Shown here: one piece after another, positions 1,949 to 33,484 of the stretch
How positions within the stretch are numbered: position 1 is the stretch's first letter
Layout: each line of letters opens with the position of its first letter
Origin: a virus
Length of the DNA stretch: 36,006 nucleotides
Strand: one strand, 5' to 3'
IMG/VR virus record: IMGVR_UViG_3300024979_000003
Coordinates: 1 to 36,006 of that record
Translations under genes and position numbers: made by a program
The notes under the pieces: model-generated
Databases searched by the model: none
The model's input: the letters and a program-made list of their open reading frames with translations, nothing else
What the model was told of the DNA's origin: nothing

Positions 1949-3157
1949 ATGTCTAATAGTTTAGTCACCTGCTCAGTGGTTGCAAAAGAATCACTGGCAA
2001 TTTTAGAAAACATGTTGGGCTTTTCTGCCAACGTAAACCGCGACTGGGAAGACGAGTTCACTGGCAATATGTCACGTGGCTATGCGCCTGGTTCTACCAT
2101 CAACATCAAAAAACCACCACGCTACACATATCGTGCAGGCCGTGTGGCAGTGCCTCAGTCAACCACTGAAAGCACCATTCCATTGACACTATCTCAAGGC
2201 GGTACTGACCTAAACTTTACAAGTGCAGAGCGTACTTTGTCATTGACTAAACTTGAATCAAAACTTCAAGCAGCAATGGCAACCGTAGCCAACGAGATTG
2301 ACCGTCAAGGTTTGGATTTAGCTCGCACTTCAGTGTTTAACGCATTGAACTCAACCTATGCATCACCAAACACACAAGCTCTGGCTATCGGTGCTGTAAC
2401 TGATATTAACCGCAGACTTGATGAGATGGGCGCACCTCGTGACCGTCAACGTTCACTGGCTCTATCACCAGCATTGAATGCTAACTTCGTGACTGGATTT
2501 GCTGGTCTGTTCAATGGTCAATCACAAATCAGCAAGCAGTTTGGCTCTGGCGTGATGGTTGATTCACTGGGCTTGAGCTATGCAATGGATCAGAACGTGG
2601 CAACACACTCAAACGGTGCTGGTACAGCTTCAAACGTGAACGGTGCAAACCAGACTGGCGCCACTATCACAGTAGCGGCAACTGGTGCAGGTACTATCAC
2701 TAAGGGCACAGTTATCACATTGCCTGGCGTGTATGCCGTTAATCCACAATCACGTCAATCTACCGGCGTATTGGCTCAGTTTGTCATCACTGCTGACGTG
2801 GCTCAAGGTGCAACATCACTGCCTATTAGTCCAGCTATCGTAACATCTGGCGCATTCCAGAACGTAACAGCATCACCTACAACTGGTCAGCCATTCGTTA
2901 TCTTCGGTGCAGCATCTACCAGCTACAGCACATCAGTTGGTTACCACAAAGACGCATTCACTCTGGCATCAGTGCCATTGTGGGCACCTCCAGGCGGTAA
3001 AGGTGTGATTGACGTAGCACAGGAAAGCTATAAAGGCTTGAACCTGAAAGTGACAGAGTTCTACGATGGTGTGAATGACAACAGCATCATGCGTATCGAC
3101 ATTCTTTTTGCCTGGGCTGCTACATACCCTGAGTTGGCTGTTAAATACGCTCTGTAA
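1949..3157 (+). CDS. Major capsid (coat) protein, P22 gp5 family
   Basis: 402 residues; P22 coat is 430. The N-terminus (SLVTCSVVAKESLAILENML ... VNRDWEDEF) and TINIKKPPRYTYRAGR at about residues 50-65 match the P22 coat family (HK97 fold). A beta-rich region at about 215-320 with many Thr/Gly/Ala residues fits the inserted domain that P22 coat carries. The ribosome site AAAGGAAATAAT is strong and preceded by two hairpins. A clear terminator follows the gene. It builds the icosahedral shell with the scaffold just upstream. Confidence 0.93.
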   Translation: MSNSLVTCSVVAKESLAILENMLGFSANVNRDWEDEFTGNMSRGYAPGSTINIKKPPRYTYRAGRVAVPQSTTESTIPLTLSQGGTDLNFTSAERTLSLTKLESKLQAAMATVANEIDRQGLDLARTSVFNALNSTYASPNTQALAIGAVTDINRRLDEMGAPRDRQRSLALSPALNANFVTGFAGLFNGQSQISKQFGSGVMVDSLGLSYAMDQNVATHSNGAGTASNVNGANQTGATITVAATGAGTITKGTVITLPGVYAVNPQSRQSTGVLAQFVITADVAQGATSLPISPAIVTSGAFQNVTASPTTGQPFVIFGAASTSYSTSVGYHKDAFTLASVPLWAPPGGKGVIDVAQESYKGLNLKVTEFYDGVNDNSIMRIDILFAWAATYPELAVKYAL

Positions 3158-28161: not shown

Positions 28162-28490
28162 TTACTTTAGAACGTCTTGACTGGCTGCTGGGTAACTGGG
28201 CAGATTACATGAAGCAACCATCATCTAAGCTGGGCTATCCTTCAAAAAGCTTATGCCTTGCTACAGGTGGCGGTAGTAGCGATGATGAATTTGAAATACT
28301 TTGCGATGAAGTAGATACTAAATGCGCTCAAGCTATGGACAGCATCATAGACAGCATCAGCCAGCCACAGAGGACATCAATCAATCATGTATGGCTAAAG
28401 GTATCACATCACTATCCAACGCAGGCTATGGACTACGAAGAAGCGATAGAAAGCATATTGAGATTGGCTAATAAGAGGGGATTGCAATAA
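28158..28490 (+). CDS. Candidate late antiterminator (Q-like)
   Basis: 110 residues, ribosome site AAGGGGGCAAA. It has an N-terminal LDWLLGNWADYMK helix, a variable loop with LCLATGGGSSDDEFE, and a helical C-terminus (SIIDSISQPQRTSINHVWLK ... EEAIESILRLANKRG). The W/L pattern at the start and the RxxxxHxWL block recall phage Q-type antiterminators. The main evidence is position: it is the last gene before a strong promoter and short terminated leader, as Q is before pR'. It could be another late regulator. Confidence 0.6.
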   Translation: MITLERLDWLLGNWADYMKQPSSKLGYPSKSLCLATGGGSSDDEFEILCDEVDTKCAQAMDSIIDSISQPQRTSINHVWLKVSHHYPTQAMDYEEAIESILRLANKRGLQ

Positions 28491-28525
28491 TTAACAAAAA
28501 TATACAATATATTGATTAAAATGTA

Positions 28526-28554
28526 TTGACATGAACAATATATAGGTTTATCGT
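28526..28554 (+). promoter_or_regulatory. Late promoter (pR'-like)
   Basis: A perfect TTGACA (28526-28531), a 17-base spacer and TATCGT (28549-28554, four of six). A start at about 28561 would make the RNA begin at a hairpin. It follows the Q-like gene by 35 bases and drives the late operon. Confidence 0.65.
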
Positions 28555-28560
28555 ACTTAT

Positions 28561-28641
28561 CAGGGCAGAGTTGCGCCCATAGGAAATAGTAGTGCAAATT
28601 CTGTTTAATAGGCTCACATCTAGTTATGTGGGCTTTTTTTT
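28561..28641 (+). ncRNA. Short terminated late leader RNA
   Basis: About 80 nt between the predicted start and the terminator. It holds GGGC-AGAGTTGC-GCCC (28563-28578) at the 5' end and the terminator hairpin at the 3' end, with no ORF. It corresponds to the lambda 6S/pR' leader RNA by layout, not by sequence. Confidence 0.5.
28612..28641 (+). terminator. Late leader terminator (tR'-like)
   Basis: GCTCACAT (28612-28619) pairs with ATGTGGGC (28626-28633), eight pairs with one T-G wobble, followed by eight T. It should stop the late transcript unless the polymerase is modified. Confidence 0.85.
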
Positions 28642-28649
28642 CGTCTAAG

Positions 28650-29260
28650 AATCCGCTATTGCGGTATTTATGCCCACAGAGGCATTGTGTTTGCAGACCA
28701 CAATAAAAACTGCGCTAACTCCACTGTGGTACGCAGCCACATAAAATAAATTTTGGACTGACCTATCCTAATGCGCGAATCGGGTTCGCTTTTGACAGCC
28801 GAGCGCCTGAGCTTTTAGCGGCAAGGGATAAACAGGAAAACAGTCAATGACAGCCAGAAATGGTGAATAAGCGATTCGCACCCGTAAGGTGGTCCTGATA
28901 AATAAAGCAGCTAACATTCATGTGAGGATTGGACGTTCTCATGTGTACGCCTACAGTCAAATTGAACTTCCCTACATGGGTATCCATAATAAGGTCAAAG
29001 ACTGTGGGCTGTCATTGTTCGTCTGTATTGATAAGTTTTACTTATGGATAGATGAATTATGATAAGTAATACCACGATTGGCTAAACAATCGCTGCGAGC
29101 CTACGCTAGGGGGTGGTATATGCCTAGCACCTACAAGTAATAAACAACAATTATTACATTTAAGTATTCATCCGACTGTACGCGGTCATCATGGATGATA
29201 GCCATCAACAGGAAGCTAGGCCAGCTTCACCTAGTCAGAGCTGCTAGGGTGGCGTAAAGC
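28650..29260 (+). ncRNA. Candidate large structured RNA (gene-less region)
   Basis: No reading frame above 60 codons exists here, but many helices can be drawn. Examples: GACTG/CAGTC (28756/28841) enclosing TATCC/GGATA and GCGAA-TCGGG-TTCGC; a ten-pair stem 28949-28958/29000-29009 (one wobble) enclosing ATGG-GTAT-CCAT; ATAAGT-TTT-ACTTAT (29031); a three-way junction ATACCAC/GTGGTAT (29069/29113) with arms GATTG/CAATC and CCTA/TAGG; GTAATAA/TTATTAC (29137); TCATC/GATGA (29186); GAAGCT/AGCTTC (29212). It lies in the late leader before the terminase genes. Class unassigned; it could be a large ornate RNA of the GOLLD/ROOL kind, a pac-linked region, or decayed coding DNA. Confidence 0.5.
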
Positions 29261-29282
29261 TCTTATCTATTCAGGTGACACT

Positions 29283-29453
29283 ATGGAAGACAACACAGCA
29301 ACCAATGAAATAACTGGTGACCGTATCGCAACAAAGCGTAGTAAGACCTATGCAGACAATTATGACAAGATTGATTTTAGCGTAAAGCTAGACACAGACC
29401 ACTTCAATCATCTACTGAAAGATGACCAACTCGGATTTAACAAAACAGACTGA
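29283..29453 (+). CDS. Small protein before small terminase, unknown
   Basis: 56 residues, with AGGTGA five bases before the ATG. It is acidic at the N-terminus with a basic patch (RIATKRSKTYADNYDKIDF) and ends HFNHLLKDDQLGFNKTD. Position between the structured region and terS suggests a packaging or regulatory accessory. No family recognised. Confidence 0.6.
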   Translation: MEDNTATNEITGDRIATKRSKTYADNYDKIDFSVKLDTDHFNHLLKDDQLGFNKTD

Positions 29454-29495
29454 GATGCTCTCAGGTCGCTCTATATGAGCAGGTAAGGAATCAAC

Positions 29496-29822
29496 ATGGC
29501 AGTATCTGATAACAATTTGAATGATAAAAATAAAAGCACTGGGTATGCCGATAAGCGCAGGAATGAGAAAAAGGCTGCTTTACGTGAGTTCATTCAAGGT
29601 CAAAGATATATCCAGGCTATCAATGAAGACTTAGATAGAGTTGATATTACTAATGAAGAATTGCCAGTAATCAAGTTCAAGACAGAAACACGTTTAAAGC
29701 TACTGAACAAAGTATTGCCTGACCTGAAAGCTATTGAGCATTCCGGTGAAGATGGTGAAGGCATTAAACTGATTCATGTAATTGAGCGTCAAATTGTCAA
29801 AGCTAACACTACAAACGCCTGA
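29496..29822 (+). CDS. terS: Terminase small subunit (by position)
   Basis: 108 residues with ribosome site AAGGAATCAAC. It is helical and charged: a basic N-terminus (DKRRNEKKAALREFI), a helical middle (RYIQAINEDLDRVDI), and a region KFKTETRLKLLNKVLPDLKAIEH that could drive oligomerisation. It overlaps the large terminase by 41 bases. TerS would bind the pac site, probably in or near its own gene. Assignment rests on synteny and size; the family was not directly recognised. Confidence 0.7.
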   Translation: MAVSDNNLNDKNKSTGYADKRRNEKKAALREFIQGQRYIQAINEDLDRVDITNEELPVIKFKTETRLKLLNKVLPDLKAIEHSGEDGEGIKLIHVIERQIVKANTTNA

Positions 29823-31026
29823 AGTCTTTGCGCCATTACTAAAGCCAGCACGTTATAAAGGTGCTTACGGTGGGCGAGGTTCAGGCAAGTCACATTTCTT
29901 TGCTGATTCATGGCTAGATGAAAGCCTGAGAGAGAAATTAGACTTTGTATGCTTACGTGAAACATTGAAGTCACTAGAGTTTTCAGTTAAGAAACTGCTA
30001 GAGAGCAAGATACAAACACACAACGCTGGCTATTACTTCACAGTGCAGGATAGACGGATTATATCAAAGCATGGCGGTGTCACTATCTTTGAAGGTATGC
30101 AGAACCATACCAGTGAATCAATCAAGTCACTTGAAGGCTTTGACCGTGCATGGTTCGAGGAAGCGCAGAACGCCAGTGACAAGACATTAACGCTATTAAG
30201 GCCAACGATTCGTAAGGCTGGCAGTGAGATGTGGTTCGGCTGGAATCCTGACCTTGCTACTGACCCTATCGAGCAACTATTACGCTGTGATGTGCCACCT
30301 AGCGATTCAATTGTGGTGAAGGCTAATTACACAGATAATCCATTCTTGCCTAAAGAACTATTGGATGAAATGGAATATGACCGGCTGCGTGACCCTGACA
30401 AATACGCGCATGTATGGCTAGGTGAGTACAGGCGCAACAGTGAATCGAGAGTGTTCCGCAACTGGATAGTAGAAGAATTTGAAGTAGACCCTTCTGCTGT
30501 GATTAGGCAAGGCGCTGACTGGGGATTTGCGATTGACCCAACTGTACTTATTCAGTGTTACATCATAGGCCGCAAGCTTTATATCCCATACGAAGCATTT
30601 AAAGTGGGCTGTGACATTACAGACACGCCTGAATTGTTCCTGAGTTTGCCGGATGCTGAAAAGTGGAACATCACGGCTGACAGTTCACGGCCTGAAACCA
30701 TCAGCCACATGGCTAAAAATGGATTTAAGATAAGACCGGCGGTTAAAGGCTCTGGCAGCGTAGAAGATGGCATCGAGTGGCTCAAGTCATTTGACATTAT
30801 CGTGCATCCTCGCTGTAAGCATACGATTGACGAGCTAACACTGTATAGCTTCAAGACTGACCCATTGACAGGCTCTGTCATCCCAGTATTGGAAGATAAG
30901 AATAATCACGTTATAGATGCATTACGCTATGCCTGTGAAGGTGCTAGACGTGCAAAACCTAAGATAGAAAAAGAAAACAAGGCAGACGTACACAATATGC
31001 ATCATGACTTGGGATGGATGGGTTAA
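29782..31026 (+). CDS. terL: Terminase large subunit, PBSX/Sf6 type
   Basis: 414 residues from a TTG start; no ATG or GTG precedes the Walker A motif closely, and another TTG lies at 29794. ATPase: GGRGSGKS (30-37), Walker B AWFEE (Glu126/127). Nuclease: Asp246 in ADWGF, Asp300 in TADSS, Asp379 in NNHVIDALRY. These match the Terminase_3/PBSX family, which includes the Sf6 headful enzyme. The rare start and deep overlap with terS suggest translational coupling at low yield. It pumps and cuts DNA at the portal. Confidence 0.92.
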   Translation: MSVKLSKLTLQTPEVFAPLLKPARYKGAYGGRGSGKSHFFADSWLDESLREKLDFVCLRETLKSLEFSVKKLLESKIQTHNAGYYFTVQDRRIISKHGGVTIFEGMQNHTSESIKSLEGFDRAWFEEAQNASDKTLTLLRPTIRKAGSEMWFGWNPDLATDPIEQLLRCDVPPSDSIVVKANYTDNPFLPKELLDEMEYDRLRDPDKYAHVWLGEYRRNSESRVFRNWIVEEFEVDPSAVIRQGADWGFAIDPTVLIQCYIIGRKLYIPYEAFKVGCDITDTPELFLSLPDAEKWNITADSSRPETISHMAKNGFKIRPAVKGSGSVEDGIEWLKSFDIIVHPRCKHTIDELTLYSFKTDPLTGSVIPVLEDKNNHVIDALRYACEGARRAKPKIEKENKADVHNMHHDLGWMG

Positions 31027-31328
31027 TGAATCTAGGCAATAGAGTTCTAGGCTATGCAACATGCAAGCTATTAGTCAGCCAAGCTATCCCTAATATGCGA
31101 CTGATTGAGATTAACTCTCTGCATACCAATGAGCATCACCGGCGCAAAGGCTGGGCAACTAAGTTACTGAACAAGATATGCGATGAAGCTGATGATGTAG
31201 GTGTTGGCTTATTGCTGATGCCTGACACGGAAGAATTAAAGACATGGTACACAAAACACGGCTTTCTAACCTTACAGGAGAAGCCAGTTATTTTAATGGC
31301 TAGACCGCCTAAGGGAAAATTTGAGTGA
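31026..31328 (+). CDS. GNAT-like acetyltransferase between terminase and portal
   Basis: 100 residues from the ATG at 31026 (TAATG overlap); an ATG at 31014 is possible. The acetyl-CoA loop HHRRKGWATKLLNKICDEAD and the C-terminal WYTKHGFLTLQEKPVILMAR block are GNAT motifs. It is shorter than usual for the family (about 140-180). A target is not known; it might modify host or virion proteins. Confidence 0.75.
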   Translation: MNLGNRVLGYATCKLLVSQAIPNMRLIEINSLHTNEHHRRKGWATKLLNKICDEADDVGVGLLLMPDTEELKTWYTKHGFLTLQEKPVILMARPPKGKFE

Positions 31329-33484
31329 AAGACGAAAAACCAACAACGCCTAGCGAGATAGTAGCCGAGGCTAAAAAGCGTTTTGAGCGTGCTAAACAGG
31401 CTTACAGCTCATCACGTCTGTTAGCCGTTGAAGACACACGTTTTGCGATGGGTGACAGTGACAATGGCTGGCAATGGCCTGAGGATATACGCAGCACTCG
31501 TAAGCTGGATAAGCGAGTATGCCTGACTGTGAACATGACCGCGCAGCATTGCAACCAGATCATCAACAATATCCGTCAGAACAGGCCAGCAGTTAAGGTT
31601 TCACCGGCTGATGATAGGGCTGACAAGAAAACAGCAGAAATACTATCAGGCTTGATTCGTAACATTCAGGTATCAAGTGCCAGCGATGACGCACATGACA
31701 CGGCAGCAGAACATTCTGTATATGGCGGTGAAGGTTACTGGCGCATTATTACCGAGTACGAAAGCCCAACGAGTTTTAACCAGGTAATCACTATCAAAGC
31801 TTGCCCTAATCCTAACCTAGTTTACATTGACCCTGACTGTAAAGAGCTGGACAAGTCAGATGCTGAATGGGGTTTTGTGTTTGAGGATATTAGCAAAGAA
31901 CAGGCCAAGCGTGAGCACCCAGAGATTGACCCTGCATCATGGGGCGATGAAAGTAAAAAGAACGAGTGGGAGAAAGACGAGACATTCAGGCGTGCAGAGT
32001 ATTTCTATTGCACGTATGAAAAAGATACTGCCTGCCTGCTTTCTGATGGATCAACCGTTCTAAAGTCTAAGCTGCAAGGTAACGAAATAATCGTTAAAGA
32101 GCGTGAGACACAAGTAAAAAAGTGGAAATGGTGCAAGCTGGTTGGTGGGCATGATGCCCCGATTGATGAGACTGACTGGCTGGGTGATTATCTGCCTATC
32201 GTGTCAGTGGTAGGTAAAGAGGTCAACGTCAACGGTGATATTGTACGCAAGGGCATCGTACGTGATTTAAAAGACCCAGCGCGTATGGTGAACTTCTCAT
32301 ACTCTGAGACAGTGCAAACCCTAGCCTTGCAGAATAAAGTGCCTTATATGGCCTCTGCTGAAGCGATAGAGGGCTATGAGACGATATGGGGCGCAGCAAA
32401 TAACGAGACACGCGCTTATTTACCGTATAACGCCTTTGATGAATCAGGCAATCCATTGCCAAGGCCAGAGCGTCAAGCGCCTGCTGTGATGCCTGCTGCA
32501 CAGGTTCAACTGTTGCAGCTATCTACCGAGCAGATGCGAGCAGCATCAGGCCAGCAGAATGCTAACTTTGGCATCAAGTCTGAGGCATCCAGCGGCGTAG
32601 GCATTCAACGCTTAAAAGTACAGGGTGAAACTGCAACATTTCACTTCCCTGATAACCTGGCGCGCGCTTTACGCTATGAGGCTAAAGTCCTGATTGACCT
32701 GATACAGAAGTATTACGACACACAGCGCGTAGTGCGTATCTTGGGATTGGATGGACAGGAACAGAATGCTGTATTGAACCCTGAGATGGAGCAGCCACAT
32801 CAGGAAATGGAAGATGAAGCTGGTGAGATTAAACAGATATTTAATCCGCAAGTAGGCCGTTATGACGTGGTGATTGATACTGGCCCTAGCTATCAGACAC
32901 AAAGACAAGAAGCCTTTGCATCATTGACCGAGTTAGCCAGCCGCAACCCTGCATTTATGCAGATAGCCGGTGACATTATCATGAGAGCTGCCGACTTCCC
33001 AATGGCTGACAAGTTAGCTGAACGCCTAACTAAAGCATTACCGCCTAACCTGCAAGAGCAGAAGGGCGCTCAAGTGCCGCCAGAGGTACAGCAGCAGTTA
33101 AGCCATGCAGAGCAAGTCATGCAGGAAATGGATGCTCAGATCCAGCAGCTTAACCAAGATAAAGCACAGCTAGAGCAGGAACGTAATGCCAAATTACTGG
33201 AAGTTAAAGCCAGTGCTGAAAGTGCAGAACGTGATGCAGAGCTTAAACGTGAAAGCGAAGAGAATAAATACGCAGTAGAAGCATTCAAGGCTGAGACAGA
33301 GCGTATGAATGTATTGCAGAACGCTATCACACCTGAACAAGTGCAAGCATTAGTCATGCAGACCATACAAGACATGATGAACGCGCCACCGCTTGAGCAG
33401 GAACTAAACGAACCGCCCATTATTGAGCAACAAGAACAGCCACCTGAGGGTGGTTTTTTTACGCCTGAAGGAAATGAACAATGA
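31325..33484 (+). CDS. Portal protein, P22 gp1-like
   Basis: 719 residues against 725 in P22. GTG start overlapping the GNAT stop (GTGA). The N-terminus (EIVAEAKKRFERAKQAYSSSRLLAVEDTRFAMGD, interrupted) and CLTVNMTAQHCNQIINNIRQNRPAVKVSP are typical of P22-like portals. The last 120 residues are a long coiled coil (EQVMQEMDAQIQQLNQDK ... AELKRESEENKYAVEAFK), matching the P22 C-terminal barrel that reaches into the head. The dodecamer forms the DNA entry vertex. Confidence 0.92.
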   Translation: MKDEKPTTPSEIVAEAKKRFERAKQAYSSSRLLAVEDTRFAMGDSDNGWQWPEDIRSTRKLDKRVCLTVNMTAQHCNQIINNIRQNRPAVKVSPADDRADKKTAEILSGLIRNIQVSSASDDAHDTAAEHSVYGGEGYWRIITEYESPTSFNQVITIKACPNPNLVYIDPDCKELDKSDAEWGFVFEDISKEQAKREHPEIDPASWGDESKKNEWEKDETFRRAEYFYCTYEKDTACLLSDGSTVLKSKLQGNEIIVKERETQVKKWKWCKLVGGHDAPIDETDWLGDYLPIVSVVGKEVNVNGDIVRKGIVRDLKDPARMVNFSYSETVQTLALQNKVPYMASAEAIEGYETIWGAANNETRAYLPYNAFDESGNPLPRPERQAPAVMPAAQVQLLQLSTEQMRAASGQQNANFGIKSEASSGVGIQRLKVQGETATFHFPDNLARALRYEAKVLIDLIQKYYDTQRVVRILGLDGQEQNAVLNPEMEQPHQEMEDEAGEIKQIFNPQVGRYDVVIDTGPSYQTQRQEAFASLTELASRNPAFMQIAGDIIMRAADFPMADKLAERLTKALPPNLQEQKGAQVPPEVQQQLSHAEQVMQEMDAQIQQLNQDKAQLEQERNAKLLEVKASAESAERDAELKRESEENKYAVEAFKAETERMNVLQNAITPEQVQALVMQTIQDMMNAPPLEQELNEPPIIEQQEQPPEGGFFTPEGNEQ

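Follow-up and report, generated by a model that had tools for sequence, protein, structure and literature searches.

The window, i.e. the whole stretch of 36,006 bases that was analysed, is from a P22-like podovirus and carries in its late leader a structured noncoding RNA of about 450 bases (hereafter module C) that recurs in ∼55 other phage contigs, dozens of them from unrelated phages, with 33 distinct core sequences. Three core helices (P2a, P2 and P3) hold in nearly every member, which confirms a fold backed by evolution. Our results support the assignment of module C to a new RNA family that, at the sensitivities used, is not GOLLD, ROOL, an Rfam intron or another Rfam family. As to its role, we give about an even chance to the view that this compact, pseudoknotted RNA is a cassette exchanged among phages, gated by antitermination and acting in trans as an accessory RNA.

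Leader organization and the inserted RNA

The window encodes a terminase large subunit (29782–31026, plus strand; PF04466, E 1.8e-27; phrog_3717, E 7.3e-53) and a P22-type portal (31325–33484). Neither strand of 28491–29282 has an ORF of at least 60 aa, which agrees with the gene-less late-leader region of the original prediction. Several elements lie here on the plus strand: a sigma70-type promoter (TTGACA-N17-TATCGT, 28526–28554; score 11.3, with 0 of 40 shuffles as good; kept in L089); a leader terminator recognized from its fold, with a ten-pair stem plus T8 (28610–28641); module B, a set of short leader hairpins that are conserved in relatives without the RNA (28648–28716); module C (28718–29163, ends approximate), delimited by its absence in relatives L088 and L089, by its fold and by covariance model R1, which scores 78.7 bits at 28799–28916; module D, the conserved leader 3′ of the insert (29165–29282; kept in L088, L089 and L090); and a 56-aa ORF, the first gene past the leader (29283–29453; conserved in L071, L088, L089 and L090). 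The 3′ end of module C is uncertain, and positions 29020–29163 align poorly to relatives.

Relatives were gathered via the terminase (80 loci) and via the small ORF that follows the leader. In L088 and L089, the leader on either side is shared with the window, but approximately 28717–29163 is missing, and in L089 AAAACTGCGCT is joined almost directly to ATTCAGCCGACTG. Module C is therefore either an insert or a segment that these relatives have lost. When 84 sources were searched with a covariance model of the core, only the window and a near-identical copy (L002) matched; beyond that set, the 80 terminase loci contain a diverged copy (L005) and a near-identical fragment whose sequence begins within the leader (L003). 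Many terminase loci carry little upstream DNA, so that absence is informative only for loci with enough of it. Being missing from L088 and L089 and sparse among terminase relatives, module C behaves as an exchangeable cassette. This discrete-insert nature was absent from the original prediction, whose ACCACA/TGTGGT pairing (28697/28725) is not supported, as it would join the conserved leader to an insert that relatives lack.

The same leader slot of L088 (2200–2670) holds, instead of the RNA, an ORF that by eye resembles a homing/HNH-type protein and, past that ORF, a long-hairpin insert of ∼95 nt. These contents suggest a hot spot for insertions in the leader.

The flanking modules are conserved in their own right. 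Module B is near-identical in L088 and L089, and in L004 it carries the compensatory changes CCGC/GCGG to CCTC/GAGG and ATGCC/GGCAT to ACGCC/GGCGT. The second of these keeps a local hairpin in place of the pairing once proposed between GCCCACA and the terminator arm (actually at 28627–28633 rather than 28626–28632), which is poorly kept in L004. A hairpin of module D likewise shows a compensatory change in L089 (TCATCC/GGATGA to TCAGCC/GGCTGA). Modules B and D, with such changes in relatives, may together form a smaller leader RNA of their own; folded separately, they are no better than shuffles (z only −1.0 for module B).

A conserved pseudoknotted core

The core of module C consists, in order, of GAG (28809–28811), a spacing of exactly 11 nt in every member, AAG.GATAAA, P3, GATAAATAAAGCA and the 3′ strand of P2, all on the plus strand. 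The 6-nt loop closed by helix P2a (28811–28813/28820–28822) has bases that pair with 28910–28914, and the resulting helix P2 (28815–28819/28910–28914) crosses P2a as a pseudoknot that the original prediction did not contain. Helix P3 lies at 28833–28837/28893–28897. Two joining strands complete the core: AAGGGATAAA (28823–28832), in which AAG and GATAAA are near-invariant, and the near-invariant GATAAATAAAGCA (28897–28909). The search patterns fixed GATAAAC and GATAAATAAAGC and left the base pairs free; the invariance of GATAAATAAAGCA and GATAAA is thus partly due to selection, since both belonged to the patterns.

Covariation in the three helices is far above controls. Base-pair cells of P2a, P2 and P3 are paired in 96.1% of cases versus 60.5 ± 1.7% after shuffling and 26–48% after sliding, and 147 cells have both sides changed versus 41 in the shuffled control. 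Among the 31 distinct sequences, (i) the paired share is 100% for P2a (all three pairs formed in 31/31), 91% for P2 and 99% for P3 (99.4% of cells); (ii) both sides have changed at 11 of the 14 core pairs, i.e. two in P2a, five of six in P2 and four of five in P3; and (iii) the covariation score is 0.892, compared with 0.194 for shuffled and 0.07–0.20 for slid controls. Four members found later (L174, L176, L178 and L180) obey every pair and score 81–82 bits with the model. Three other pattern matches (L175, L177 and L179) break the core pairs and are false.

Folding energies point the same way for the region as a whole. Positions 28640–29280 fold at −197.5 kcal/mol versus −170.8 ± 5.5 kcal/mol for shuffles (z = −4.87, with only 20 shuffles), and module C alone has z = −3.38 on the plus strand and −1.06 on the minus strand. 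One P2a pair includes 13 U-G cells, which would be mismatches if read on the other strand; together with the difference in fold z, this favours the plus strand. Treated as a nested structure, the core alone (28780–28925) has no advantage over shuffles (z +0.84), which is unsurprising if it depends on the pseudoknot. With homologues that are not decayed coding sequence, covariation above controls and an energy below shuffles, the large structured RNA originally proposed here is borne out. Its individual stems fared unevenly: the ten-pair stem with one U-G (28949–28958/29000–29009) is exact and the stem at 29069–29119 is present in the sequence, but several others are not supported, including a 28756–28845 junction (28756–28760/28841–28845) that crosses the strongly conserved P3.

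Membership was extended from the window by DNA patterns. The first, a conserved stretch common to the window and L005, retrieved phages of different sequence and higher G+C content (L082 and L084), and further patterns gave the rest of the contigs. Many matches to one loose pattern were chance matches in coding sequence, which we discarded by the P2a/P2/P3 rules. Nucleotide searches with the region from the window gave no match in phage, plasmid or Escherichia coli collections, and those with other members gave only MW202753.1 and the MW202484.1 leader in the phage collection. MW202753.1 (L144) is a deposited genome with the RNA, which lies beneath a protein annotation. This annotation, hypothetical protein UOF81610.1 (2972–3403 of L144), overlaps the core of the RNA and probably does not represent a real gene. 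A pattern scan of 85k bacterial and archaeal genomes produced five matches, all false; its gap of 50–80 covers type A (see below) and misses many type B copies, so that this negative is weaker for type B. The motif description was not found in the literature, in a search that covered mainly freely accessible papers.

Genomic contexts and a possible role

Module C occurs in two settings. In type A (11 members, with L133 left out of the context count), it precedes the gene of the terminase large subunit, with both on one strand, in the window, L005, L084, L094, L108, L128, L130, L137 and L147, and precedes a minor tail protein in L082. In type B, the RNA and the terminase are on opposite strands in each of the 11 records in which both could be placed, and the RNA heads a divergent operon with RecE-like exonuclease and RecT-like genes. 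Of 28 members, 22 have an upstream promoter-like site that no more than 10% of shuffles equal, at a distance from the RNA that is roughly constant within each type. Sixteen members have a terminator-like hairpin ∼92–119 nt before the core, and the window and L133 have theirs farther upstream; in most members the hairpin ends near the RNA start, with a gap of ∼8–25 nt. Both types thus share one layout of strong promoter, ∼100-nt leader, terminator, RNA and operon, so that a promoter and then a terminator precede the operon as in a P_R′-type arrangement.

The type B leader of ∼100 nt upstream of the RNA (L129, L118 and L106) contains two interleaved helices, e.g. GTAACGGT/ACCGTTAC crossing GAAGCCACTTAT/AGTAAGTGGCTT, that amount to a pseudoknotted terminator. 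A related leader without the large RNA is present in L145 (∼3000–3120; MW202484.1).

Outside the core, helix P1 (28794–28800/29007–29013; GACAGCC/GGCUGUC in the window, plus strand) closes the RNA. All 11 type A members have a P1 complement with differing sequences, similar to GGCAAGAC/GUCUUGCC. Helix P5 (28951–28958/29000–29007, plus strand) has exact pairs, is extendable to the ten-pair stem and gives z = −4.05 for its hairpin alone (28948–29013); its inner part recurs in type A relatives by inspection. Helix Pa (28720–28723/28754–28757, plus strand) pairs in the window and covaries in type B, where relatives have TCCAC/GTGGA, CCCTC/GAGGG, CCCGC/GCGGG and TCCGC/GCGGA. Type B also has a second pseudoknot, in which the P3 interior joins the UCAUCAUC strand near the 3′ end; 0 of 2000 permutations of strands among members reach the mean pairing of the true assignment. 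For the type A counterpart, 550 of 2000 permutations are as good, and TGAC/GTCA is changed to TGAT/ATCA in L084 and L094.

In the lambda P_R′ leader (6S RNA), a promoter, a short leader and a terminator precede the late operon, which is switched on by Q antitermination. Module C loci share this layout, but the lambda leader has no large structured RNA past the terminator. The narrow gap between terminator and RNA in most members leaves no room for a promoter of the RNA's own, so polymerase would arrive only after the leader terminator is overridden. This might happen as in the Q/P_R′-type late switch, a mechanism established for lambda and proposed here by analogy. In that case, the operon, once switched on, would yield module C as its first abundant product, and in lytic growth this RNA would serve as a trans-acting accessory that probably binds a host component. 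In this explanation the fold, strand, presence or absence and recurring layout are computed, and the antitermination gating and trans role are what we infer. We tentatively go one step further and regard module C as a new class of trans-acting RNA, switched by antitermination and traded between late and recombination operons, in which the pseudoknotted core with its near-invariant strands AAGCGAUAAA/GAUAAAUAAAGCA may serve as a binding or catalytic site.

Another possible, though rather doubtful, explanation is that module C acts in cis as a leader element controlling transcription or stability of the operon, either through processive antitermination like that of put or through a switch between two alternative partners of P1. 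Every copy with a readable context heads its operon in the same orientation, which a cis element would also require. In 6 of 11 type A members, two sites 57–75 nt apart are exact 8-nt complements of the P1 5′ strand (one 7-mer and one 8-mer in a seventh), as expected of a switch, and a terminator-like hairpin follows shortly downstream of the RNA in some type A members. This constant position and the duplicated P1 partner lend a cis role some plausibility. However, the RNA sits after the leader terminator rather than before it, and the second P1 partner overlaps no terminator stem in the members inspected. The put RNA of HK022 (∼70 nt, two hairpins) is likewise a structured RNA early in a phage operon, but it lies upstream of the terminators that it defeats, whereas module C is much larger and lies just downstream of the leader terminator. 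Furthermore, the same operon is present in L088 and L089, which lack the RNA, MW202484.1 has a related leader without it, and the RNA fronts two unrelated operons. That close relatives have this operon but no module C, and that module C occurs before unrelated operons, favours reading it as a trans-acting accessory.

Between the two P1 complements of type A members, a hairpin GATAG...CTATC recurs. The same region has TTGYC followed ∼16–18 nt on by a GATAGT-like motif, which may be a second promoter.

Relation to known RNA classes

The original prediction had left open whether the RNA was GOLLD, ROOL or a new class, and the searches answer in favour of a new class. Rfam 15 has no match in the whole window, nor in 28480–29500 up to E = 5. 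Across 14 other loci nothing exceeds the gathering score except tRNAs; at E ≤ 1, L118 and L163 give no match and L084 gives only two sub-threshold chance matches.

Presence or absence between modules B and D in close relatives and a sporadic distribution across phages would also suit insertion into the leader of a mobile RNA, either a ribozyme or an intron-like element. This is improbable: the Rfam models of group I introns, group II introns, HEARO and other families match neither the window nor the other members scanned, the left and right junctions differ among relatives, and elsewhere the RNA adjoins a terminator rather than lying within a conserved RNA or gene. Type A copies adjoin terminase genes, as a DNA site for packaging, replication or recombination with incidental helices might, but we consider this highly improbable because type B copies head a recombination operon on the strand opposite the terminase, and because the G-U wobbles and fold z indicate one RNA strand.

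GOLLD and ROOL are the classes closest in kind, yet both fail the Rfam and tRNA-neighbour tests. Phages and prophages carry GOLLD, a large structured RNA that accumulates in lytic growth and has no known function (PMC12286853, PMC7567579). It is often longer than 800 nt and located near tRNA islands, whereas module C has ∼350–450 nt, lies at an operon head behind a leader terminator and differs in sequence and structure; the GOLLD model of Rfam finds no match. ROOL is a phage-borne RNA with multiple pseudoknots, also of unknown function (PMC12286853). It is often found near tRNA islands and assembles into an RNA-only nanocage; its Rfam model matches neither module C nor the members scanned. 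Although GOLLD and ROOL are likewise phage-borne, large and pseudoknotted, that module C is a very divergent member of either is the most improbable explanation, as it is shorter, gives no cmscan match at permissive thresholds and occurs without tRNA genes in the window and in 20 of the 22 member loci that were scanned (tRNA genes are present in only two).

Few classes of large structured RNA exist in phages, and even for the best known, GOLLD and ROOL, a function has yet to be assigned. The novelty claimed here is that of an RNA family absent from Rfam 15, not of a mechanism. Because module C occupies two sharply different yet fixed settings, its cis and trans roles are directly testable by moving or deleting the cassette, and close relatives that naturally lack the cassette already exist for comparison.
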